The translations under genes and the position numbers were made by a program. The notes beneath the pieces are model-generated. The model saw nothing but the letters and a program-made list of their open reading frames with translations. It searched no databases and was not told where the DNA came from. This document shows positions 9,099 through 61,287 of a stretch of DNA of 64,000 nt, one piece after another (the stretch's first letter is position 1; each line of letters starts with the position of its first letter). The stretch spans positions 2,728,001 to 2,792,000 of the forward strand of contig NC_060021.1 in NCBI RefSeq assembly GCF_021134715.1, in the 5' to 3' direction. Source of the stretch: Daphnia pulex. Its lineage: Eukaryota; Arthropoda; Branchiopoda; Diplostraca; Daphniidae.

Positions 9099-9572
9099 TA
9101 GTTATTATTACTCGGTGGCATCATCAGAGACACGAGACCTCGAATTTGTTCTATTCTACAAAATTTGTTTCCCCCCTCCTCTGTTGTTTTCTCGAGTTTA
9201 TTTTGATTTCTATTTCGGGATTCGGGGCTCGACAATATTTATCGAGAAATTGAACCGAAGAATGTGCATTCGTTTTAATTTTTTTTATACAATTCGTAAA
9301 ATTTATAAGAGATTTGATACTTTTGAAAAATGGATATTTCCCGAAGTTGTTTGGACAGTAATATAATATGAAATTATGAACAAAGATCACATTCTTTTTT
9401 AAAACTAGTTTGCTATTTTTTATGTCGGTCAAACGCCACCTAGTGATAGCCTTAAAAAGCCTTTAACTTTAACCAAAAGCGTAAACAAGGGGAAAGCGTT
9501 GGTTAGCCTATAGGAAAACACAACTGTCTGTCAGAACTCAGAAACGTTTTGCAAAGAACTTATTCGATTAAA

Positions 9573-10013
9573 ATGGTACGAGAAAAGCAAACTGCTCGCA
9601 AATCGACCCGTGCTGCTGGCCAACTTACTGCCCTTGCCGCACAGAAGAAAATCAAAGGAAGGCACTCCCAACGTATCGCCAATCAAAGTGGCTTGAAAAC
9701 TGAACTTTTGAAGAAGAAGAAGCATCTACATCACTATCGTCCTGGTGCCCTGGCTCTCAAGGAGATTCGTCGCTACCAAAACTCGACCAATCTTCTCATC
9801 CCGAGAGTTCGTTTCCAACGACTTGTTCGCGAAATCTCGAAGGACTTCAAACTGAACTTGAGATTCCAGAGTGGAGCCATTGGCACCTTGCAGGAGGCCA
9901 GCGAGGCATTTTTGGTGGGCCTATTTGAAGACACCAATCTGTGTGCTCTTCATGCCAGTCGTGTCACCATCATGCCCAAGGATATTCAGCTAGCACGTCG
10001 GATACGAGGATAG
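9573..10013 (+). CDS. Divergent histone H3 variant, copy A
   Basis: This is an intronless, 146-residue protein. The histone fold is unmistakable ([62 protein letters not shown]). The N-tail begins [11 protein letters not shown] instead of [11 protein letters not shown]. It keeps Lys4, Lys9 and Ser10 but has Glu at position 3. The K27/K36 region is unrecognisable and the tail before the HYRPG core is about 14 residues longer than in canonical H3. The protein stops at RRIRG and lacks the usual ERA. Loop 1 has normal H3 length, so it does not look like CENP-A. No replication-type stem-loop follows. AATAAA lies at 10291, fitting a polyadenylated variant mRNA. Compared with copy B it has two extra residues (HLHHYRPG) and Arg for Gly at 12. 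It is probably expressed, though this is not proven. Confidence 0.8.
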
Positions 10014-11038
10014 AAATTCAAAAGCTTGTCCAACTTTAAATTCAAGAAAACTATTAAAGAAAAACAGAACATCCCCAGCACATTTTATTAACCAAGAAGT
10101 AAATTCATCCTATTTTGTATTATATAATTTTAAGTCCCATTTTTGTATATCAATGGCAGCACATTTCTATCATTAGAAAGCACTGTTTGGCTATTTAATA
10201 CCAGACAAAACTTGTATTTTGTTGAACTTGTTCCTCAAATTTGTATGCGACTAAAACAAATGAATTGAGCAATCCAATGTTTGGGCAGTCAATAAATAAG
10301 TTCAGTAAAATAATATGTAGTCACAATCTAATCTGAATTATAACTAACATTTATAATAATTCATTTTCTTCTTTTCTCAAACATTCTTGCCTTGCACTCA
10401 TCAGAGTGTATTATTAAATCACAAAAACATGTTGAAGCGTCCACAAAAACCTCATACCCAAACCCATATGATATTCAATCCCCCAACTCCTGTTTGTCAA
10501 TTAATAATTAAGTTTGATAATTTTTTCTCATATATAACGTATTTAACGATGGTTTCTCCACGTTGGCTGCGTCGTCTTTGACCGTTTATAGTATTGCCAC
10601 CTTCACATTACATATATCACCGTCAACATATTAGATTGAAAAAAGTGTAGTAGATGTCGTGACTGCTGACGACGTCAAAATTTTCTAATCAAATCACTTA
10701 TTTATAATAAGTAGTTCAGTCATTCCCTTTCTTTAGTGTTGCCGGAGCTCTTGAACCGCACATATTCACACCAAATTGTTTTTTTTCTTTCTTATCTCGT
10801 GAACTCGACTGATGCAGATATAACAGCCGGTCGACAAGAAATTTAATATTTCATGGTTCAATGGACAAATTGGACATTTATCGAGATAGTGGTTCTGATA
10901 TCGTTTGATTTTTCAAAAATTTATTGCGTCATTCTCTTCCCTCCTTCTGTTGGCCGAACTACACAATGAACTAGTTCTAGTCATCATAAGTTAAGTTTCT
11001 TTTTCAGCGCTCCTTAAACAGCTATCAAACGAAACTAA
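10014..11038. other. Spacer between the H3-like gene and the kinase-caspase pseudogene
   Basis: It holds the H3-like 3' UTR with AATAAA at 10291-10296, then AT-rich sequence that is also present in block B (53916-54925). No reading frame is supported. Conserved sequence just before 11039 probably contains the promoter and 5' UTR of the fusion gene. Confidence 0.6.
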
Positions 11039-13430
11039 ATGGCCGAGGAAACTGAGAATGAACGAAGGCAACCACCAGCAGGTATAACAATTACAAATGT
11101 TCTAATCTAATCTAAACTCGTGGCATATTCAAATGTGTCGAATTTGATTCCACACACACACACAAGTGCGCATTTCCCCAGTTGTTTCTTAATCTGATTT
11201 TCCGTTCTGTTTCAGGATGTACGGACAGTACGCTGAACAAAATCAAACCGAGTGATCGAGCAAACTTCAATATTGCTCAAAACACGAGAAAAGTAATAAA
11301 AACGGCGAAAATGATTCGACAAAATTTAGTAGCATTTCACATGGCACTTTTGAAAGTGAGACGCTGAAGGTCTTTATCCGAAAATTTGAAAGATCAAGGA
11401 TGAGGGATGGAGATCTTGAAGTCATTCGGGATCTCGCGGCTCTTCGACAGCGACCGAATTTGCACGGAAATTTCATCCGCTACTTCGCAATGGAAGAAGA
11501 CAGAGACTTTATGTAATATGTCGCGATACGTCACATTATTTAATATATTCAAAGAGTAATCTAAAATTCAAATTCTTTTTCAATGCTATACAGTTACGTC
11601 ATCACAGAGTGGTGCATTTGTTCCGTGGAAGATCTGTACGGTACCAGAAGTAATGAGGGAACCAATTGGATTGGAGAACAGATTTTTGTGGAAAAAATCA
11701 AGAAATCACTAGGACCAAAACAGATCTTATGGCAAGGCACAAAAGGACTGGAATATCTGCATAATTTGAAATATGTCCACCGAAACCTGAAGCCGAGTAA
11801 CTTTTTGATCGCTAAAATTAGCGACATGGATCAGCCCGACGAGTACAAGGTGAAGCTGTCAGATTTCTCTTATAGTAAACAACCAAAGGAGAGTCCAATA
11901 GTTTCTGGCCCGAGAGGATCGAACGGATGGATCGCTCCCATTTCGGAAACAGGAACGATAAAAGCGCCAGAGGATTATGTTGCAGATGACGTGTTTGTCC
12001 TCGGATGTTTTTTTCACTACGTTTTGACCAACGGACTTCATCCTTTCGGTATTTAACAACTCGCAAAGAATCAACAGTAATTCTGATCCGGTGTATTGTG
12101 CTGCGTGGAATCCGAGGTGGAATCCATCTCTGCCAAATCAAAACGAACAAGCAGACCTTCTTTTGAAATTTGAAGCAAATGATCAAGTTCGTTCTTAAGG
12201 AAAGGTGCAGCCTCATCCAAGTCTTGGATTCCCATTATTTTCTGCCGGATAATTATTACCATGATTATTAAAAACTTTACGACATAACCGACGGAGTCAA
12301 ACCGGGACTCTCCGTCATCTTTAACCAAGAAATTTTTGATGATGTAAATAATTTGAGTGTTTACACTTTAAGTAAAATTGATAATAATAAATTTTTTTTT
12401 ATTTCAGTCAAGAAGCAATCGAGACGGAACTGAACGTGATCAAACAAAATTGACAGGGGTATTCAAGGCTTGGGATTTGACGTGGAAATTTTCGAAAACT
12501 TGAAGAAGAAAGATCTTTTATATTATATTGAAGGTTTAAGATCACGGGATTTCTCCACATACGCCAGTCTCATTGTTTGCATTCTCTCCCATGGAGATGA
12601 GAATGTCGTGGAAGGAACCGATGGAAAAAGTTTGAATATCAACGAACTTAAATATAAGTTCAACAGTAACGATTGTCCTTCATTGAACGGAAATCCAAAA
12701 TTTGGATCATACAAGCTTGCCAGGGCACTGAAAATCAACCACCTTTTAGACAGTCTTCTGACAGAAGGTCCGAATCGCGATCGAATTTTAATACCGACGG
12801 TAATCACCCATCAGGACAGATTTTAAGATTTCAGATTAGCTACGAGCCAAAAAGTATTTGATTCATGACTACATTTTAAACTTGATTGCTCAAGATTTCA
12901 CTCGATAACTTCTAAAATCCTTATTACATAGTAACCTTTGAAAGAACATCCACAACAAAGACAGAGGGAAATGGATCAGCACAAGAGAATTTGAACAATC
13001 GAGCGCCTTTTATGGATTTCCTTGACATCAGAGCCTCTATTCCTGGTTTCCATGCTTACCGATCTGAAGATGGTTGGTCTGAATATCTTATTTTATTTTT
13101 TTTTATCGAAAATTATCAGTTATTTATGGATATGATGTAATAGGATCTATTCTGATTCAATGCCTTTGCGAGGAAATGGGGAAGGAATATTTAAGCGGGA
13201 AAACGTCGCCGAATAAAGAATCCAAGGACTTAGAAGCATCCTCAATAGCGTGCAAGATATAATATGTAATAAAACCATGGCTTTATCCGAGACTTTGTAA
13301 CGAATTTGTAAAACAAACTATTGTGAGAAATGTTTCTCTTAATGGCCGGATGAAATTTAAAAAGGGCCATTCACCGGGAAAAGTCACTTTACGACAAAAT
13401 GAAAGGTAATGCCGATTCGTCGACAACTTC
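11039..13430 (+). pseudogene. Pseudokinase-caspase fusion gene, decayed copy A
   Basis: It is collinear with the intact gene at 54926-57316 and keeps exon 1 unchanged, but several lesions break it. Exon 2 is shifted out of frame upstream of the shared KVRR/KSER region. In exon 3 a 4-bp insertion right after HPFG creates a TAA at about 12054, followed by a 12-bp in-frame duplication and further substitutions and stops near 12190. One T is lost in the start of the caspase exon (AAGGCTTGGG near 12467), and one base is lost just before the catalytic-Cys region near 12698. The kinase-like part still reads HRNLKPSN and DFS as in copy B, so those substitutions predate the duplication. A truncated product ending after HPFG is possible, but no caspase could be made. 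Confidence 0.85.
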
Positions 13431-13912
13431 AAATAATATAATTTTAAGCGCTATTGACATTTTTACAATATTTATTTCGTTTTTCCTTTTTTCTGTCTCC
13501 ATGTAGCTTTTTTTTTTGGTTATGCAGATTTATATTCTTCGTGACGGCTCCTCTACATCGTTGCTTTTACCAGAGTTGAGACGAAGTATACGACAGAGAA
13601 ATCCATCAATACCATACGCCAAACTTTTTGATTTACTTACTACTATTTGGTGGGATTACGTTGCCCGCATTGTCTCGCTTCTTTTACCAATAACTATATT
13701 TTATCTGTTTATAACCGTATGCCCTAATTCAATTTCTTTTATTTATTTTTTTCGTTTTATTTCACTTCAGTTTAATTGTAAATAATTTAAAAAATGTGTG
13801 CGCTTTACTCGATGATGGATGGCTCGAGAAAATAAATTCCTTAGCTATTACATTATGTTAAAGTAGCTAATGCTATTGCCCAAGGATAAATTGAGCTAGC
13901 ACGTCGCATTCG

Positions 13913-42748: not shown

Positions 42749-45700
42749 ATGGAAAGGCATGTAATTGTCAAAAAAGAAAAGGTGGACTCGTCAAATTCAG
42801 TCTCATCAACTACAACCAAATTTGCACCTAAACTCCATAAGTAGTTTGGATAAAACAGGAAATAGTCACATTATTCATTTATTCCTCTGATGAAAGTGAT
42901 GTCTATGATGGACACCAAAATGTTGGTGGCAGCAAAACTGTACAGTTAGAAAGACAAGTGATTGTGAAACAAGAAAAGGCAGAAATTCCAGCTGTAGAAA
43001 CTAAATCGAACGAAATGCCTTCGTTCAAAGTTCAACGCGTTCAGAAACATCCAGACCAGATAGTCGAAAACGCTTCACTGGCCAGTGTTTCACTTCCTGA
43101 TGCCTGGTATAAACTCGTCTTACCTGAAGAAATCATCGACAGTGGAGCTCTATAAGCCGTTCAACTGGAACCCATCATCCATGCCTGTCAAAGGCATAAA
43201 CATAGGCTACCGGATGGATCTCGAGCTGGATTTCTTGTCGGAGATGGAGCCGGAGTGGGCAAAGGCCGGATTGCAGCCGGAATTGTCGTGGAAAACTACA
43301 GTGAGGGACGTAAGAAATCTGTTTGGATCTCCGATTCAAACGATCTCAAATACGACGTGGAACGAGATTTTCACGACATTGGAGCCGAGTTCATCCCCGT
43401 CTGTTCCTTGAACCAATTAGACCCCAGTTCCAGGATGTTGGATTGCGAGCAAGGTGTTCTATTCACCCTTATTCGGCATTAGTCGAACAAGTCCGATCGT
43501 CAATCGGAATATACCAGACGGGTCTGAAACAATTGTTGAAGTGGTGCGGAGTACATTTCGATGGCGTCATCATCCTGGACGAATGCCACCAAGTCAAGGA
43601 CCTGTTTTACAGAGGTTCCAAGAGTGAATCTTTAATAGAATTGCCAATTTGCGATTTACAGAACGAGTTGCCAAACGCCAGGATCGTTTACATTTGCGCC
43701 ACTGGAGTTTCAGAGCCCCGGATTATGAGCTACATGAACCGCCTGGGACTTTGGGGTCGAGGGACTTCATTCAAAGGTAATTTTATTGTCCATTTGATGC
43801 AGTATATTAAAATTAATGTTTCGTCCTTGCAGTATCTAGACTTCTAGAGCTTTCATCGATACAGTTGAGTCTTCAGGTGTCATGGAAATCGTTGGAATGG
43901 AGATGACGCAAATCGGAATGTAATGGTCAGACAAATGTCTTTCAAAGACGTATCCTTCGAAGCTGTCGAGGCCTCTCTCACCTTGAAATTCATCAAAGTT
44001 TTCGACAATTCCGTCAAACTGTGGGATCAGTTACGTCAATCGCTTACCAAAGCGACAGAAATTGTGAATTCCGCTCAAAATATGCGAAGACCTTTGTGGT
44101 GTCAATACTGGTCGTCCCATAACAAATATTTCAAGGACCTGTCCATCTCTGCCAAAGTAATGCACACCGTCAGGATAGCTAAAGAGGCGGTGAAAAACGG
44201 AAAATGTGTCGTGATTGGAGTTCAATCGACGGGCGAAGCCTAAACCTTGGAGCAGATGGAAAAAGAAGGTGGTGGACTGTCGGATTTTGTTTCGCCCACC
44301 AAAAACATTCTGCTATCTCTTGTCAACAGGCACTTTTCTGTTTCCGGTTATTACGACGGAACCGTCGGAGGGAAACGGAAGCCTTACTACGAAGTTGATG
44401 GCAAATTCAAAAGGAAGAAATCCGAGTCAACTGAATATTACGACGCATCCGATTTGGAGTCGGAAGAATGGAATGAAGATGCGAAAAATGACCGTGAAAG
44501 TTTGCCATCGATAAGAAATCAACTCTTTATTGCGCTAATCGAGAAGCTCGGGGCTTTACTTCCACGTAATTGGATGGATTATTTAATTAACGAATTGGGA
44601 GGCCCTCAAAATGTGGCCGAAATTTCGAATCGGGAAGGCCGTGTCGTCCAGAAAGACAACGGGCAGGTGAGTTCTACCTTAAAATTTAGTCTTTGTAAAT
44701 TATCTAATGACTGATGACACTTTTTAAATTATGATAGATCTTATACGAATCTCGTTCAGAGTCGAATGTTCCTCTGGAGATGATCAATGTCCGTGAAAGG
44801 GAACGGTTTGTGGATGGAGATAAAAATATTGCCATCGTCTCTCGAGCTGCTACCAACGGAATTTCACTTCACGTATATAGCTCATGTTAATTATGTGTGA
44901 ATTAGGTTTAATTTTTAATTTTATAGGCTGATCGGCGTGTGATAAATCAACGTCGTCGTGTTTACATTTTACTGCAGTGTCCGTCAAGTGTTGATTTAGC
45001 CATTCATCAGTTTGGATGTGTCCATAGGAGCAATCAAGTATAAGCTATTTCAATCAAGTTATAAATTGATCGAATTTCATTTCTTCTGTCATAGGTTACG
45101 GCACCTGAATTCATCATCTTGTTCTCGGAATTAGCGGGTGAAAGGAGATTCGCTTCGATTGTTGCCAAACATCTTGAACATTTTGGGGCAACTAACTCTA
45201 GTGATCGCCATGTCATCGAACCAGTTGATCCCAGCGAATTCAGCATAGACGACCAGCACGGATGGCTGGCCCTCGAGTCTACGATGCGATCCATTTTAGG
45301 GTACAAAGAACCAGTTGTCCCACCACCAGCTGACTACCTAGGAGACTTTTGCAAAGGTTTGCACTACAATAGTTTATTGAGACTAACCTTAATATTCTAA
45401 CTGAATTTTGTTTAAATTATTAGACATAAGTGAAGCTCTATTTTCAGTTGGACTAATTAAGAATTGTGCATTTGGCTCGGATTGGGCTCCTAACGCGTTT
45501 CCACCGCCTTACAACACTCATCTTCCTAAATTTCTTAATCGGATCCTGGGCGTTCCGGTGGAGCTCCAAACAAGGCTGTACAAATACTTCACCGACACTC
45601 TGTCAATGACCATCCACTACGCCAAAACGAGGTCCGATTTCAGCGCTATGGGAATTGTTGACATTGGCGAAGGTATATATATCCACCGGACTAAACTGCA

Positions 45701-53312: not shown

Positions 53313-53480
53313 ATTGCCGCATCTTCAAACGCCATCTAGCGATAGCATTTTAAAGCCTTTAGCCAAAAATAAGTAAATAAATAAAGAGAAAACGTTGAGG
53401 TGACTGCTCGCCCTTTAAGAAAGGAAAACAACTGTCAGCAACTCGGAAACTTTTTGCAAATAAGAACTCATTCGATTAAA

Positions 53481-53915
53481 ATGGTACGAGAAAAGCAAAC
53501 TGCTCGTAAATCTACTGGTGGTGCTGGCCAACTTGCTGCCCTTGCCGCACAGAAGAAAATCAAAGGAAGGCACTCCCAACGTATCGCCAATCAAAGTGGC
53601 TTGAAAGCTGAACTTTTGAAGAAAAAGAAGCATCACTATCGTCCTGGTGCCCTGGCTCTCAAGGAGATTCGTCGCTACCAAAACTCGACCAATCTTCTCA
53701 TACCGAGAGTGCGTTTCCAACGACTTGTTCGCGAAATCTCGAAGGACTTCAAACTGAACTTGAGATTCCAGAGTGGAGCCATTGGCACCTTGCAGGAGGC
53801 CAGCGAGGCATTTTTGGTGGGCCTATTTGAAGACACCAATCTGTGTGCTCTTCATGCCAGTCGTGTCACCATCATGCCCAAGGATATTCAGCTAGCACGT
53901 CGCATACGAGGATAG
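53481..53915 (+). CDS. Divergent histone H3 variant, copy B
   Basis: This is a 144-residue, intronless reading frame, nearly identical to copy A at 9573. Its tail [20 protein letters not shown] keeps the Gly-Gly of canonical H3 after Thr11 and so looks closer to the ancestral form than copy A. Lys4, Lys9 and Ser10 are present, position 3 is Glu, and the K27/K36 neighbourhood is replaced by [18 protein letters not shown]. The fold helices and the [12 protein letters not shown] end are typical, but the ERA C-terminus is missing. AATAAA at 54199 follows, and no histone stem-loop is seen. Preservation of the frame in two copies, with most differences confined to the tail, suggests it is or was recently under selection. 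Confidence 0.82.
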
Positions 53916-54925
53916 AAATTCAAAAGCTTGTCCAATTACAAATTCAAGAAGATGATTCAAGAAAAGCAGACTATCCCCAACATTTTATTAACCAAGAAGT
54001 AAATTCATCTGATTCACCCTAGTTTGTATTATAATTTTAACTCCCATTTTTGTTTATCAATGGAAGCACATTTCTGACATTAGAAAGCACTGTTATGGCT
54101 GTTTGATAGCAGACAAACCTTTTATTGTGTTGAACTTGTTCCTCAATTTTGTATGCGACTGAAACAAATGAATTGAACAATCCAATGTTTTGGTAGGCAA
54201 TAAATAAGTTCAGTAAAATAATATGTAGTCAAAATCTAGTCTATTATAGTCTATTGTAACTAAAACTTCTAATAATTCATTTTCTTCTTTTCTCAAACAT
54301 TCTTGCTTTGCACTCATCAGAGCGTATTATTAAATCACAAAGATAAGCTGGAACATCCACAAAAATGGCATTCAATCCCCCATGAACTCCTTTTGTGAAA
54401 GAATCATTTAGATTTATAATTCTACTCATATTTAACGATAGTTTCTCATCGTTGTCTGCGTCGTCTTTTACCATTTAGTATTGTCAACTTCACGTTCCTT
54501 AAATCATCGTCAACATAATAGATTGAAAAAAAAGTGTAGTAGATTTCGTGACTGCTGACGACGACAAAATTGTCTAGGGGTATCAAATATCATTTAGTTA
54601 TTATGAGCCGTTCTGTCGTTCCCTTTCGTTAGTGTCGCCGGGACTCTGAAACCGCTTAGTTTTATTTCCTTATCTCGTGAACTCGACTAATGCAATGCAG
54701 CCATAGGTCGAGAAGAATCTGATGGTCAACGGATATTTATCGAGATAGCGGTTCTCATATCGTTGGATTTTTCAAAATTTTATTGCGTCGTTATCAGTCG
54801 TTATGTTCCCTCCTTCTTTTGGCCGAACATCCGTCTAGTAGGCGTCTACACATTGAACTAGTTCTAGTCATCATAAGTTTAGTTTCTGTTTCAGTGCTCC
54901 TTAAACAGCTATCAAACGAAACTAA
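53916..54925. other. Spacer between H3-like copy B and the fusion gene
   Basis: It contains the H3-like 3' UTR and AATAAA at 54199-54204, then AT-rich sequence shared with 10014-11038. The promoter of the fusion gene presumably lies in the last few hundred bases, and no motif is assigned. A minus-strand frame at 54277-54474 is unsupported. Confidence 0.6.
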
Positions 54926-57316
54926 ATGGCCGAGGAAACTGAGAATGAACGAAGGCAACCACCAGCAGGTATAACAATTACAAATGTTCTAATCTAATCT
55001 AAACTCGTGGCGTATTCAAATGTATACATTTGAATACGTGTCGTCAACCACATTCGACACGTGTGTGGAATGTGGTTGCCACTCACACACACACACATAA
55101 GTAAGCATTTCCCCAGTATAGTTTCTTAATCTGATTTTCTTTTTTGTTTAAGGGTGCACGCTGAAAGAAATCGAACCGAATCATCGAGTCAAACTTAAAT
55201 GTTGTCCATATCATATGCAAAGTAATAAAAACGGCGAAAATGATTCGACCAAATTTAGTAGCATTTCACATGGCACTTTTGAAAGTGAGACGCTGAAGGT
55301 CTTTATCCGAAAATCTGAAAGAGCAAGGATGAGGGATGGAGATCTTGAAGTCATTCGGGATCTCGCGGCTCTTCGACAGCGACCGAATTTGCAAGAAAAT
55401 TTCATCCGCTACTTCGCAATGGAAGAAGACAGAGACTTTATGTAATATGTCGCAATACGTCCCATTAATATATTCAAAGAGTAATCTAAAATTCAAATTA
55501 ATTTTCAATGCTATACAGTTACGTCATCACAGAATGGTGCATTTGTTCCGTGGAAGATCTGTACGGTACCAGAAGTAATGAGGGAACCAATTGGATTGGA
55601 GAACAGATTTTTGTGGAAAAAATCAAGAAATCACTAGGACCAAAACAGATCTTATGGCAAGCCACAAAAGGACTGGAATATCTGCACCATTTGAAATATG
55701 TCCACCGAAACCTGAAGCCGAGTAACTTTTTGATCGCTAAAATTAGCGACACGGATCAGCCCGACGAGTACAAGGTGAAGCTGTCAGATTTCTCTTATAG
55801 TAAACAACCAAAGGAGAGTCCAATAGTTTCTGGCCCGAGAGGATCGAACGGATGGATCGCTCCCATTTCGGAAACAGGAACGATAAAAGCGCCAGAGGAT
55901 TATGTTGCAGATGACGTGTTTGTCCTCGGATGTTTTTTTTACTACGTTTTGACCAACGGACTTCATCCTTTCGGTAACAACTCGCAAAGAATCAACAGTA
56001 ATTCTGATCCGGTGTATTGTGCTGCGTGGAATCCATCTCTGCAAAAGCAAAACGAACAAGCAAACTTTCTTTTGAAGCAAATGATCAAGTTCGATCCCAA
56101 TGAAAGGTGCAGCCTCATCCATGTCTTGGATTCCCATTATTTTCTGCCGGATAATTATTACAAACTTTACGACATACCCGGCGGAGTCAAACCGGGAATC
56201 TGCGTCATCTTTAACCAAGAAATTTTTGATGATGTAAATAATTTTAGTGGTTACACTATAAGTAAAATTTATAATAATTAATTTTTTTTAAATTTCAGCC
56301 AACAAGCAATCGAGACGGAACTGAACGTGATAAAACAAGATTGACAAGGGTATTCAAGGCTTTGGGATTTGACGTGGAAATTTTCGAAAACTTGAAGAAA
56401 CAAGATCTGTTATATTATATTGAAGGTTTAAGATCACGGGATTTCTCCGCATACGCCAGTCTCATTGTTTGCATGCTCTCCCATGGAGATGAGAATGTCG
56501 TGGAAGGAACCGATGGAAAAAGTTTGAATATCAACGAACTTAAATATAAGTTCAACAGTAACGATTGTCCTTCATTGAACGGAAAACCCAAAATTTGGAT
56601 CATACAAGCTTGCCAGGGAACTGAAAATCAACCACCTTTGAGGCAGTCTTCTCACAGAAGGTCCGCATCACGATCGAATTTTAGTACCGACGATAATCAC
56701 CCATCAGGACCGATTCTAGGATTTCAGATTAGCTACGAGCAAAAAAGTATTTGATTCATGACTACATTTTAAACTTAATTGCTCAAGATTTCACTCGATA
56801 ACTTCTAAAATCCTTATTACATAGTAACCTTTGAAAGAACATCCACAACAAAGACAGAGGGAAATGGATCAGCACAAGAGAATTTGAACAATCGAGCGCC
56901 TTTTATGGATTTCCTTGACATCAGAGCCTCTATTCCTGGTTTCCATGCTTACCGATCTGAAGATTGTTGGTCTGAATATCTTATTTTATTTTTATTATAA
57001 AAAATTAACAGATATTTATGGATATGATGTAAAAGGATCTATTCTGATTAAATACCTTTGCGATGAAATGAAGAAGGAATATTTATGCGAGAAAACGTCG
57101 CCGAATAAAGAATCCAAGGACTTAGAAGGCATCCTGAATAGTGTGCAAGATATTATAAGTAAGGAAACATTGACATCCAAGACAGAATTTGTAAAACAAA
57201 CTATTGTGAGAAATGTTTCTCTAAATCGCCGGATAAAATTTAAAAAGAGCCATTTACCAGGAAAAGTGACTTTACGTCAAAATGACAGGTATGAATGCCC
57301 ATTCGACAACTTCTAA
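54926..57316 (+). CDS. IRE1-like pseudokinase fused to a caspase
   Basis: Six exons keep frame throughout: 54926-54968, 55153-55441, 55519-56233, 56299-56746, 56825-56965 and 57012-57316. They give 646 residues. Residues about 15-330 are a kinase-like domain closest in motif to IRE1: NFIRYFAMEEDRDFIYVITE, GLEYLHHLKYVHRNLKPSNF, NGWIAP, CFFYYVLTNGLHPFG. The catalytic Asp is Asn175 (HRN) and DFG is DFS (201-203), so phosphotransfer is unlikely. Residues about 335-646 are a caspase. PGICVIFNQEIFDD and RLTRVFKALGFDVEIF open p20. His411 lies in SHGDEN and Cys454 in QACQG. p10 has FLDIRASIPGFHAYRSED and GSILIKYLCDEMKK. All core caspase residues are present. No RNase (KEN), CARD or DED is seen, and no signal peptide or membrane segment, so it is probably cytosolic. 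Inference: the pseudokinase replaces a prodomain and brings caspases together. Confidence 0.88.
55011..55078. repeat. Two adjacent palindromes in intron 1 of the fusion gene
   Basis: Positions 55011-55038 form a perfect 28-bp palindrome (arm CGTATTCAAATGTA). Positions 55045-55078 form an 11-bp inverted repeat (CAACCACATTC and GAATGTGGTTG) around CACGTG. Block A has only a short version without the palindromes. They could extrude as hairpins or mark slippage at a CA tract just downstream. Confidence 0.85.
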
Positions 57317-60285
57317 CAATAATAATAGGCTTTTAAGCGTCCTTGATATTTTCTAATTTTACTATTATTTTTTCCTTGGTCATGCATATTTATACTTACG
57401 GTACGGCTCCCGCACATCGTTGCCTAACCGCAGTCGGGACGAAGTACTCGACAGAGAAGTCCATCAATATCGTCATTGGCCAAACATTTTTGATTTACTT
57501 ACTATTTGGTGGGATTACGTTGCCCGCATTGTCTACCGATAACTATATTTTATCTGTTTATAACCGTATGCCAGTGATTCAGTTTATTTACTTTTTCTTG
57601 TTATTTCAGTTCAGTTTAATTTTACTAAAAACTTTTAAAAATTTGTGCGTTTTACTCGATGATGGATGGCTTGAGAAAAAAAATTCCTTAGCTATTACAT
57701 TATGTTGAAGTAGCTAATATTTACGTTTATAGCACATAATCCATGTAATTCCGTCGTAAACGCAAACGTGCGGGAAATCTAATCGATCTAATTAAACTCT
57801 ATGTATGTTCAAGTTTTACAGTGTGTACATCTCAATGGTAGAGCTTCCGACTGCAGATGTGGTTGTCCCTGGTTCAAACCTGTGTGCCCCCACTGCCCCC
57901 TATCTGTTGATTCGAACCTGTCACGACAATCTTAAACCATTCATTTTAATTGCACTATGCGCTGCGGTGCTCTGACACTATACGTTACAAGTAATAACTT
58001 GGTCGATGACCGGAGATGGGAAACTATCTCTCCTCACACACATTTCTCATCTAACCTCACAGAATCCCAAAGGCCTTTATTTCAAACAGCCGGTATTCAG
58101 GTTTAGGCGTACATAAGGAATAGGTTACACATTTACCCACATTTTTAATCCTTAACATAGCTATATTTTCCGTAGCCTGCAATACCGAAGACAAAACGAG
58201 ACCGTTTATTCCATGTTGCATCACGACAATCCTATAAGCTGCTTGTCTCGACAACCATTCTGGCTATTAAAAATATTGTCGCCAGGCTGAATAAAACACC
58301 CCCTCGATCTATAATCTATAATGTTCGTGATATTCGATCAGGTCGAATATAACAATATAAATTCTAAGGAAAGAGGAAGGTTTATCAACACGCAGGGACT
58401 ATCCAATTGAATAGGGGTAATAGTCTACAATGATTGTTTTAATTTGTTTTTGTTTTGTTTTTCTAAAAGAAATAAAATAGCGGACGTCTGTGAGTCTGCA
58501 ATGCTGTAGTCTCACAGACGCCTATGGAATAAATGAGCGAAGCTGTAGCCAATAATATAGTATAAAAAGTGTTCAAAATACACTTTGCTCTTCGACAAAT
58601 ATAATCGACAAGCTATGTAGGTGCCGGTAACCCGACCAACAGGCCCCATGCATGCAGTCGACTTATGCAAGAGGGACGACAGAACAACTACAGTGCAAAA
58701 ATTATTATACCATGCGAGCCTTTATTTGCTTTCATTCGTGAGATCTGAGATGTAATAGTGCTGGGAATCGTCCCTGACAGTCCACAAAAACACGACCACT
58801 TAGATTTTTACAAAAGATATATTTGACCAGTATTTGACACTAGAATTGGGAAATGTAAGCAGCCAATTAGGCATGCAGGTTGCAGAAACCAAATGTTTGC
58901 TTTCGGAATAAAAATATTGTGCCCTACTTCCATTTTCCACAGCCTGACTGAACTGCCCGTGCCCTTATACTCTTTTTTTTTTCCTTTTTCATCGCTTGCC
59001 CTTCTCCGCCCCTTTTATTTCCGTTTACACATTATATCTATTATGTAATAGTATGCCAGCCTATGTTAACCAATTAATTTTGGTAACCGAGAAGCTCCCA
59101 TTATTCTTTTTATTTTCTTCTTAACCGAAATCCAACACATAGAAGCTCTTGTTGAGCTTCAGATATAGACTCGGATCAGCGTCAAAAGCGTGTTGCAATT
59201 AACCTACCATGGGGTGTCGATCCTTCAAAAAACAATAAAAAAAAAAAAAAACAAAAAAAACACGAACATTTTAGGAGGATATAGTTTCGGATAGTTTCCA
59301 TCTGCGAGTGTCAATCTTGGTGTCAATGCCCGGAATAAATCGTCGATCAAGTTCCAGGAATCATCAAGGGGCAGCATATCATCAAGGGACTGAGATCTGG
59401 CCGGCCGGTTGCAAATCAAGCCTATATCTACCGGAAATAATTTCAATTGCCATATTCTCGAGATAAAATCTAAATTAATATTTATTTTTAAAATTATTAT
59501 TGTCGATTATTGTTGCCCAAATTATTACTTAAGAGTTCGGACTGTAGAGTGTAAGTGTAACCGGGTGTAAGAGAAAAGGCAACCCCATTTTCTGGCCGTA
59601 CATCCAGTTTTATCTGCTTATAAATTAAATTCGTACGTAAGTACCCAACTTAACAATTTTTTTAACTCGTTTTAACTCGAAAGTATTGAACAGTTTTAAT
59701 TTACAGTATGGCGTAAGTAAAAACCGCTCTTGAAACGCAATGAGTAGGCTAATTATAGTCATCAGCCTACAATTGGGATTACATTTCAAAAAATAAAAAC
59801 TGTTTAATGGTTTTTAATAACTTGACAGACGTTTCAAATCTCGGTGCAGCTCATCACCCCTTTATGGTGAAATAAAGCGAGATTATTATTTTCCCGTCTA
59901 AATTAGGTTAAAAAAATGCAGCTTAAGTATTCCCCCCCCTCCCAGATGTCATAAATATCAATAGGTGACGATTTCTTACCCCTCAAAACGTCATCAGCCA
60001 TGACTTGCACAGCACTAGACTTCTATCTTCCTATCCCTCGCGCTCTAGGCTTCCAATCAAAATATTGCCCAAAACAATCTCTGAAACGTTAGGGCTACGT
60101 AATGTCATGATCGTTTGGACTACGTTAAGATTTGCTTTCTTTCTTCATTATTCAACGGAAATCAGTCAGTCTTTTCCACTCGTTAATACAAACGTGACGT
60201 GTATCGACGTATCCTGTTTGTGTAATATTCTACTTTATTAGACTAGTTCTACTCAATAAGTAATCGTAATATACGATAACGTATC
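57317..60285. other. Long gene-free interval
   Basis: It begins with the 3' flank of the fusion gene, which is shared with block A. That flank contains a hydrophobic open frame (57343-57708) whose equivalent in block A is disrupted, so I treat it as UTR or intergenic. A tRNA-Cys-like relic lies at 57821-57892. A minus-strand piece at about 59270-59450 (SQSLDDMLPLDDSWNLIDD) looks protein-like but is isolated. A poly-A/poly-T rich patch lies at 59230-59265. The AACAGTTTTAAT...TGGCGTAAGTAAA words at about 59690 recur at about 62705, flanking the BTB pair. Confidence 0.45.
57821..57892 (+). tRNA. tRNA-Cys(GCA)-like pseudogene
   Basis: The A box CTCAATGGTAGAGC, the anticodon loop CTGCAGA with GCA, and the T arm CCCTGGTTCAAACCTG match eukaryotic tRNA-Cys closely. 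The anticodon stem (TTCCGA with TGTGGT) and acceptor stem do not pair properly, so the tRNA should not fold. It is a relic or the head of a tRNA-derived SINE. Confidence 0.65.
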
Positions 60286-61287
60286 ATGTCATTCACATGT
60301 TTTTCTCCGCACGTGGCACAAACTGGAAAGGCATCGTTTATAATATCCTGGATTGACGAAAACCCCGCAAATCAAGATTCCCATCGCGAGAAATACGGCA
60401 CTTCTACCTCAATCAAAACTTATTTTGGACAAGTAAACCTAAATTTTTTTTTTAAAAATTTCGTGAATGAGTGCTGCGTTCTTGTAATGGAAATGAAAAT
60501 GGATGTAAGAGATAAAACGTCTAACCTTAACAAGCTGTTAGTGAGCGTTATGGCCACAAATGACGGCGTTGAAAAGAAAATGAAATTCCAAGAAGGAAAG
60601 TGGACAGTGTCTTGGGACACTCCATTACCTGCTAAGTGCAGAAAGTGCGATGAGTGGCCAATGTATAGAAAGCTCGATGGGGTGCTTTTTGATATTTGTA
60701 TTGATTTCAACCCTTTACGTCATTTACAAACATCAACGAAAACAAGATCAACGCAGCATCTTTTGAATCTTTTAAAAAACCCGGAAGGCGCTGATGTCAC
60801 TTTCAATTTCGGAAATCAAACTCCTCATCAAACTTTGAAGGGACATTCACTAGTTCTCGCTGCCGGTAGCCCCGTACTGGCAGCTATGTTCCAGCATAAT
60901 TTTAAAGAGATGAATGCGGGAAAAGTCGTGGAAATTGCGGATATCAATTCGGAAGTATTTGCGGTTGTTCTCCAATTCTTATACACTGGAGAGGTTGACT
61001 TGAAGAATGCGGATGCAGCTGAAGTGATGGTGGCAGCGGACAAGTACGCCATCGATCCGTTGAAGGAAGAATGCGCTTCCTGTATGTCGGAGAATTTAAC
61101 GCTGGAAAATGTTACTTCCCATCTGGTGTTGGCCCATCTCCACAATGTACCGACGCTCCAAGAAGCCACCTCGGATTTAATTGCACGAAACGCGAAATCT
61201 ATTTGTTCAACAGAAGATTGGATGGGAGTAATCAAGGATTATCCTGAACTGGCCTTTGCTGTCGTTCAGCGCATAGCAAATTTCTAA
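60286..61287 (+). CDS. BTB/POZ protein of the SPOP/TDPOZ type
   Basis: A single-exon frame of 333 residues. Residues about 165-265 form a BTB domain (NPEGADVTFNF, LKGHSLVLAAGSPVLAAMF, VLQFLYTGEVDL, AADKYAIDPLKEECASCM). A BACK/3-box-like tail follows (VTSHLVLAHLHNVPTLQEAT, EDWMGVIKDYPELA). Such proteins act as substrate adaptors for Cullin-3 ubiquitin ligases. The N-terminal 160 residues sit where SPOP has MATH, but similarity there is weak (KMKFQEGKWTVSW). The frame is intact. A second, broken copy follows at 61821. Large lineage-specific families of such genes are usual in arthropods. Confidence 0.85.
   Translation: MSFTCFSPHVAQTGKASFIISWIDENPANQDSHREKYGTSTSIKTYFGQVNLNFFFKNFVNECCVLVMEMKMDVRDKTSNLNKLLVSVMATNDGVEKKMKFQEGKWTVSWDTPLPAKCRKCDEWPMYRKLDGVLFDICIDFNPLRHLQTSTKTRSTQHLLNLLKNPEGADVTFNFGNQTPHQTLKGHSLVLAAGSPVLAAMFQHNFKEMNAGKVVEIADINSEVFAVVLQFLYTGEVDLKNADAAEVMVAADKYAIDPLKEECASCMSENLTLENVTSHLVLAHLHNVPTLQEATSDLIARNAKSICSTEDWMGVIKDYPELAFAVVQRIANF

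Follow-up and report, generated by a model that had tools for sequence, protein, structure and literature searches.

IRE1 (ERN1) is built from a luminal sensor, a membrane span and a kinase domain with a KEN RNase placed directly after the kinase C-lobe, and in the human protein a back-to-back dimer is formed in which Asp620 pairs with Arg594 and Arg627 (PMC4536996). RNase L likewise carries an effector on a soluble IRE1-type pseudokinase, together with ankyrin repeats, KEN and canonical nucleotide-binding residues, and its pseudokinase is regarded as a scaffold for dimerisation (PMC4718504). In caspase-8 and the other initiator caspases the p20 and p10 parts with their QACQG site are preceded by a DED/CARD prodomain. 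These enzymes are activated by dimerisation, and to our knowledge the prodomain of the described animal initiator caspases is almost always a death fold. Kinase and caspase-like domains are found in one protein in prokaryotes, in the bacterial kinase-caspase (orthocaspase) fusions. Such fusions are not shown in the accessible part of PMC3501461 and were not found by a word search of PMC1262709. The TNFR-caspase and LRR-caspase hybrids of amphioxus, which is not an arthropod, place a sensor directly on a QACxG caspase and thereby skip the adaptors (PMC2575513).

The gene described here lies on the forward strand of the Daphnia pulex genome at positions 54926-57316 of the window, the whole 64,000-nucleotide stretch of DNA that was analysed (C5:2728001-2792000), and predicts a 646-amino acid protein with an IRE1-type pseudokinase followed by a caspase. 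The protein resembles IRE1 in its kinase relation and in having the effector directly after the kinase C-lobe, and differs in being without the luminal sensor, membrane span and KEN RNase, in the loss of kinase motifs and in having a caspase instead. The soluble pseudokinase-effector plan is that of RNase L, whereas the ankyrin repeats, KEN and canonical nucleotide-binding residues of that enzyme are missing from the Daphnia family. The caspase half is alike to caspase-8 and the initiator caspases in its p20/p10 profile and its QACQG site, with the pseudokinase in the place of the DED/CARD prodomain, and the amphioxus hybrids join sensor and caspase in the same direct way but with other sensor domains. 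No paper describing the pseudokinase-caspase architecture was found in the literature searched, which covered few subscription papers and no bioRxiv preprints, and a caspase with a predicted IRE1-type pseudokinase prodomain is in that literature not described. The first-pass annotation, which knew of no described protein of this kind, is thus upheld for the papers searched but not for databases, where members are already present under automatic names that include "Caspase-8," "caspase 8" and "ire-1." The accessible text of McTaggart 2009 (PMC2685406) gives eight D. pulex caspases, with two of eight clades D. pulex-only and the prodomains omitted as too variable. Word searches found no "kinase" in PMC2685406, no match for kinase, IRE1 or caspase in the Daphnia gene-family paper PMC12102780, and no match for caspase in PMC3710099.

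The gene model rebuilt from the sequence has six exons whose in-frame join gives 646 amino acids and a stop codon, and the five introns are GT..AG throughout with compatible phases, so that the six-exon model of the first-pass annotation is exact. The exons are as follows.

54926..54968, forward strand: exon 1, start codon and residues 1-14, joined in frame with a GT donor at 54969
55153..55441, forward strand: exon 2, pseudokinase N-lobe
55519..56233, forward strand: exon 3, pseudokinase C-lobe (HRN, DFS) and first caspase strand GICVIFNQEIFDD in a single open frame
56299..56746, forward strand: exon 4, caspase p20 with His411 (SHGDEN) and Cys454 (QACQG), and the beginning of the intersubunit linker
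56825..56965, forward strand: exon 5, remainder of the linker and initial part of p10, including Arg542
57012..57316, forward strand: exon 6, remainder of p10 and stop codon

The start codon of exon 1 is also present in a duplicate of the gene at 11039, and exon 6 is matched by residues 553-639 of the relative P0001, which align to 57035-57271. Use of an acceptor at 57036 instead of 57012 was rejected as it creates a stop codon at the join. The kinase and the first caspase strand share the uninterrupted exon 3, in an open frame (55502-56281) that spans the kinase C-lobe to this strand, and the fusion therefore lies in contiguous DNA. Dependence of the fusion on the exon 3-4 splice (56233/56299), as originally supposed, was rejected because exon 3 already holds the start of both domains, which makes the fusion firmer than first stated. 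The bridge from the kinase end to the caspase start is ~10 residues (8-12 between conserved marks in the 10 members measured), and when an odonate IRE1 is aligned the segment leading into its KEN RNase falls at this bridge. Database searches found no identical protein, the nearest being P0026, a kinase-only piece with 96% identity over 35% of the predicted protein.

Pfam assigns residues 60-319 to Pkinase (PF00069, E 4.1e-24) and residues 337-598 to Peptidase_C14 (PF00656, E 4.9e-35), with scores far enough past the curated cut-offs that chance can be discounted; the related kinase model PF07714 also matches. The best solved match of the kinase half is IRE1 with a single sequence (E 5.1e-27) and with a profile (E 2.3e-47). 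For the caspase half the nearest solved structure by profile is caspase-8 (E 5.4e-44, profile positions 332-606, covering p20 and p10), whereas with a single sequence the nearest are effector caspases, the best being a reconstruction of the ancestral caspase-3/6/7 and not caspase-8. The Pfam search named beforehand as a check thus finds both domains, and the profile matches to IRE1 and caspase-8 bear out the proposed order of an IRE1-like kinase fold and then a caspase. The KEN RNase (PF06479) is absent from the 646-residue protein by Pfam, as are luminal sensor and transmembrane domains and the ankyrin repeats that accompany KEN in RNase L, only kinase and caspase domains being found. The highest 19-residue hydropathy is 1.33, compared with 2.78 for the odonate IRE1, and of the 13 relatives all but the partial model P0012 (2.35 at residue 9) stay at or below 2. 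A death-fold prodomain (DED/CARD), which the first-pass annotation had held to be missing, is found by Pfam neither in the 646-residue protein nor at E<=1 in seven relatives, whose other weak matches fall under their cut-offs. An extra N-terminal domain in the D. magna, D. carinata and D. sinensis members was considered and rejected, as Pfam matched nothing at their N-termini at E<=1.

The kinase half has HRN (residues 173-175) for HRD and DFS (residues 201-203) for DFG, both at the positions first reported. Across the gene and its 13 relatives HRN replaces HRD in 14/14, and DFG is replaced by DFR in 13/14 and by DFS in gene 54926-57316. The DFG glycine is taken here to be PKA Gly186. The residue at PKA Gly186 is also replaced in RNase L (PMC4718504). 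The HRD Asp is lost in all 14 proteins and the DFG Asp is kept in all 14, which places them among the pseudokinases, defined by the loss of at least one of the beta-3 Lys, HRD Asp and DFG Asp (PMC4718504). Among kinase-only pieces near to the family, DFS recurs in P0020 (86% identical to gene 54926-57316) and P0026 (96% identical), with DFC in P0031 and HQN in P0029. In the members with an N-lobe the beta-3 lysine has no lysine counterpart in the alignment (0/11), a lysine one position later in 3/11 leaving the alignment register open there, and none of the 11 retains the loop's second glycine, in a gappy region of the alignment; the alpha-C acidic residue is kept in 10/11, the remaining member having a gap. 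Exon 2 of the gene itself supplies an Arg at the beta-3 lysine site and a glycine loop without any aligned glycine. An intact Gly loop and VAIK are given as the best predictors of catalysis, and nucleotide binding has exceptions (PMC4718504). The suggestion that this half binds rather than transfers phosphate is not borne out, as the absence of the beta-3 lysine and loop glycine makes nucleotide binding doubtful. HRD and DFG are intact in 16/17 and 17/17, respectively, of 17 IRE1-like kinase ORFs from 16 other D. pulex loci, chosen by pattern and none of them near a caspase match, so that loss of these motifs accompanies fusion to a caspase.

In the caspase half the catalytic His and Cys and the Gln of QxC are all kept in 14/14, and His411, Cys454 and Arg542 of the gene are as originally claimed, Arg542 aligning to the conserved p10 arginine. 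The active-site motif is QACQG in gene 54926-57316, QSCQG in P0005 and P0010, and QACRS in the truncated P0012. The p20 arginine of the Asp pocket is kept in 12/14 (the exceptions being P0011 and P0012) and the p10 arginine in all 10 members that have a p10, which P0003, P0010, P0011 and P0012 do not. The residues forming the Asp-specific S1 pocket are presumably Arg, Gln and Arg. The dyad and the Asp-pocket residues appear intact and of caspase (C14A) type. The intersubunit linker of 54-72 residues contains at least one Asp in 10/10, which is a weak sign of processing.

Thirteen database proteins carry both kinase and caspase, and the nine assigned to species are all from Daphnia (D. pulex 1, D. 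magna 4, D. carinata 1, D. galeata 1 and D. sinensis 2). A first protein search listed 19 proteins, 12 with both domains, a profile search listed 95 with the same 12, and a search with residues 330-480 listed six, all with both domains and one of them new (P0096). Outside Daphnia no further protein of this kind is present among the 95 profile matches, a weak negative as candidates need exact words shared with the query. Two members, P0001 (LOC124198235, 672 amino acids) and P0007 (LOC116916657, D. magna), bear the isoform names X2 and X3. The search of related crustaceans for the same domain order, also proposed beforehand, finds it in five Daphnia species, and the predicted pseudokinase-caspase is confirmed as real and present in these five named species. 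One relative, P0005 (745 amino acids), comes from a 2,381-base contig (source "lgn") without introns, whereas the corresponding D. pulex locus, L018, as traced using P0004, another relative, lies in five pieces with changing frames, which points to a spliced message spanning both halves for P0005.

In a kinase tree of 36 rows the 13 fused rows (gene 54926-57316 and P0001-P0012) form one clade (100/99), with the 17 rows of IRE1-like kinases (96/96) and IRE1 itself outside it and a program warning of long branches meeting. Membership of the kinase half in the HRD/DFG IRE1-like kinase expansion was rejected on these separate groups. A caspase p20 tree of 24 rows sets 13 fused rows (gene 54926-57316, P0001-P0010, P0012 and P0096) apart on one side of a branch (93/92), and they fall within an unresolved group that also contains L001, P0036 and caspase-8-like rows, the program warning of gappy rows and long branches; three of the 15 D. 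pulex caspase loci supplied (L001, L003 and L039) gave p20 under the pattern used. The kinase clade and the caspase branch together fit a single ancestral fusion, after which the halves would have evolved and duplicated together. A viral source was rejected, one scan of viral contigs giving 15 pattern matches with none confirmed.

The D. pulex genome searched (133 Mb, 13 contigs) contains at least 46 caspase-family stretches and at least 142 kinase-half-like stretches. Seven loci carry kinase and caspase, and four of the seven are broken.

window 54926-57316, forward strand: open locus, the gene described here, frame intact
C1:1682557: apparently open locus of P0001, all 672 residues found as exact 12-residue words
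C12:6921100: apparently open locus (L018), visible as pieces only
window 11039..13430, forward strand: broken duplicate (pseudogene) with seven frame-shifting exon indels
C1:1678173: broken locus, an in-frame stop at the end of the kinase coinciding with the C-terminus of annotated P0028
C12:5063351: broken locus, a frameshift at the kinase-caspase junction coinciding with the C-terminus of annotated P0022
C12:5066540: broken locus with several breaks

Breaks at or just before the kinase-caspase junction in L016 and L017 give rise to the annotated kinase-only proteins P0022 and P0028. The gene and its broken duplicate are parts of a duplicated block of 4.4 kb, the copies of which are 85.5% identical, on the same strand and ~44 kb apart.

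9429..13871, forward strand: left copy of the block, H3-like histone ORF and broken kinase-caspase
53325..57718, forward strand: right copy of the block, H3-like histone ORF and open kinase-caspase gene

The H3-like histone ORFs (9507-10010 and 53385-53912 of the window) have an unusual N-terminal part and match Pfam Histone at 2e-38 and 1.3e-39. Elsewhere in the window, 1-493 and 1254-1746 form a direct repeat of 99.8% identity, and ORFs at 43314-43844 and 60280-61284 match AAA_34 (3.4e-34) and BTB/POZ (2.7e-21). The KEN RNase is represented in the genome by three stretches, two at C1:1957230-1957666 (one IRE1 gene) and one at C4:1982994-1983125 (L011). The latter lies beside a degenerate kinase-like segment with HGN for HRD and is perhaps a pseudokinase-RNase. 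The IRE1-like kinase set (L022-L037 on C3, C10, C11 and C12) is very large compared with the two places at which a KEN RNase is found.

The best reading of the family, to which a probability of roughly 0.6 is given, is an initiator-type caspase, cytosolic and probably activated by proximity, whose prodomain is an IRE1-derived pseudokinase. The protein would reside in the cytosol and would not act as an RNase, with the pseudokinase serving as prodomain in the role of the death-fold domains of initiator caspases; a signal or partner would gather the pseudokinases and so bring together and activate the caspase domains, and the active caspase would then cleave the Asp-containing linker and substrates. 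Activation of the caspase by pairing, part of the switch proposed in the first-pass annotation, is made plausible by caspase-8 being the solved caspase closest in profile, but pairing of the kinase halves in the manner of IRE1 is not backed by the interface sites, Arg594 being kept in 0/11 (D/E in 9/11 and K in 2/11, in an uncertain part of the alignment) though the Asp620 site is acidic in 8/11 and Arg627 is kept in 9/11. The missing Arg594 counts against the best reading, as do the dN/dS of 0.81 given below, the four broken loci and the single-sequence match to effector caspases. Pseudokinases can also work by docking and allostery. The pseudokinase might then be a docking or inhibitory module that binds a partner, such as true IRE1 or an IRE1-like kinase, or restrains the caspase until release, an alternative considered less likely, to which the loss of Arg594, the noncatalytic signalling roles of pseudokinases (PMC8141879) and the many same-fold candidate partners among the kinase-half-like stretches lend weight; the dimer-activated initiator caspase-8 as profile-nearest caspase and the supposed dimer scaffold of RNase L (PMC4718504) argue for the proximity-activated initiator caspase instead.

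For gene 54926-57316 compared with the broken duplicate, dS is 0.060 and dN 0.049 (ratio 0.81), and with L006, a distant locus, as outgroup the gene branch carries 14 non-synonymous and 8 synonymous changes and the duplicate branch 22 and 2, with 32 not placed, the comparison being limited to these two sequences. Mismatches to the duplicate are 96/1934 in exons compared with 70/769 outside exons, and by codon position the exon mismatches are 36, 26 and 34; constraint on the gene is possible. A reading of the gene as a relic, in decay within a family that otherwise works, with its frame open and selection ended, is suggested by this ratio, by the broken sister copy and the other broken loci, and by the lack of an identical protein in database searches. 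It is considered unlikely, since the frame is open, no splice site is damaged, the active-site residues are preserved, the exons diverge less than the remainder, the synonymous share is 8/22 on this branch compared with 2/24 on that of the duplicate, and DFS is common to P0020 and P0026 and hence not a private loss. A FLIP-like decoy without protease activity is very improbable: the activity is predicted from sequence and P0012 has departed from QACxG, but the dyad is kept throughout the 14 proteins and the pocket arginines of p20 and p10 in nearly all and in all that could carry them. The kinase-only annotation of D. pulex P0022 and P0028 would suit an artefact of assembly or annotation merging two genes, the chance of which is negligible given one exon with the start of both domains, the same order in five named species, and junctions in the P0022 and P0028 loci that are themselves interrupted by a frameshift or stop.

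If the family is a proximity-activated initiator caspase, a single protein may detect a signal and itself set off proteolysis. It is conceivable, though quite unlikely, that in Daphnia a caspase replaced the RNase of IRE1 and that the pseudokinase forms pairs with IRE1 proper or with IRE1-like kinases, turning an unfolded-protein or immune signal, which leads to RNA cleavage in other animals, directly into proteolysis without death-fold adaptors. The names Caspase-8 and ire-1 given automatically to some members could mislead expression studies. A genus-wide IRE1-type pseudokinase prodomain would show that another module can replace the death fold, and the family would be a natural counterpart of engineered inducible-dimer caspases. 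Whether IRE1-type folds can drive proteolysis and not RNA cleavage is testable in the established models D. magna and D. pulex.
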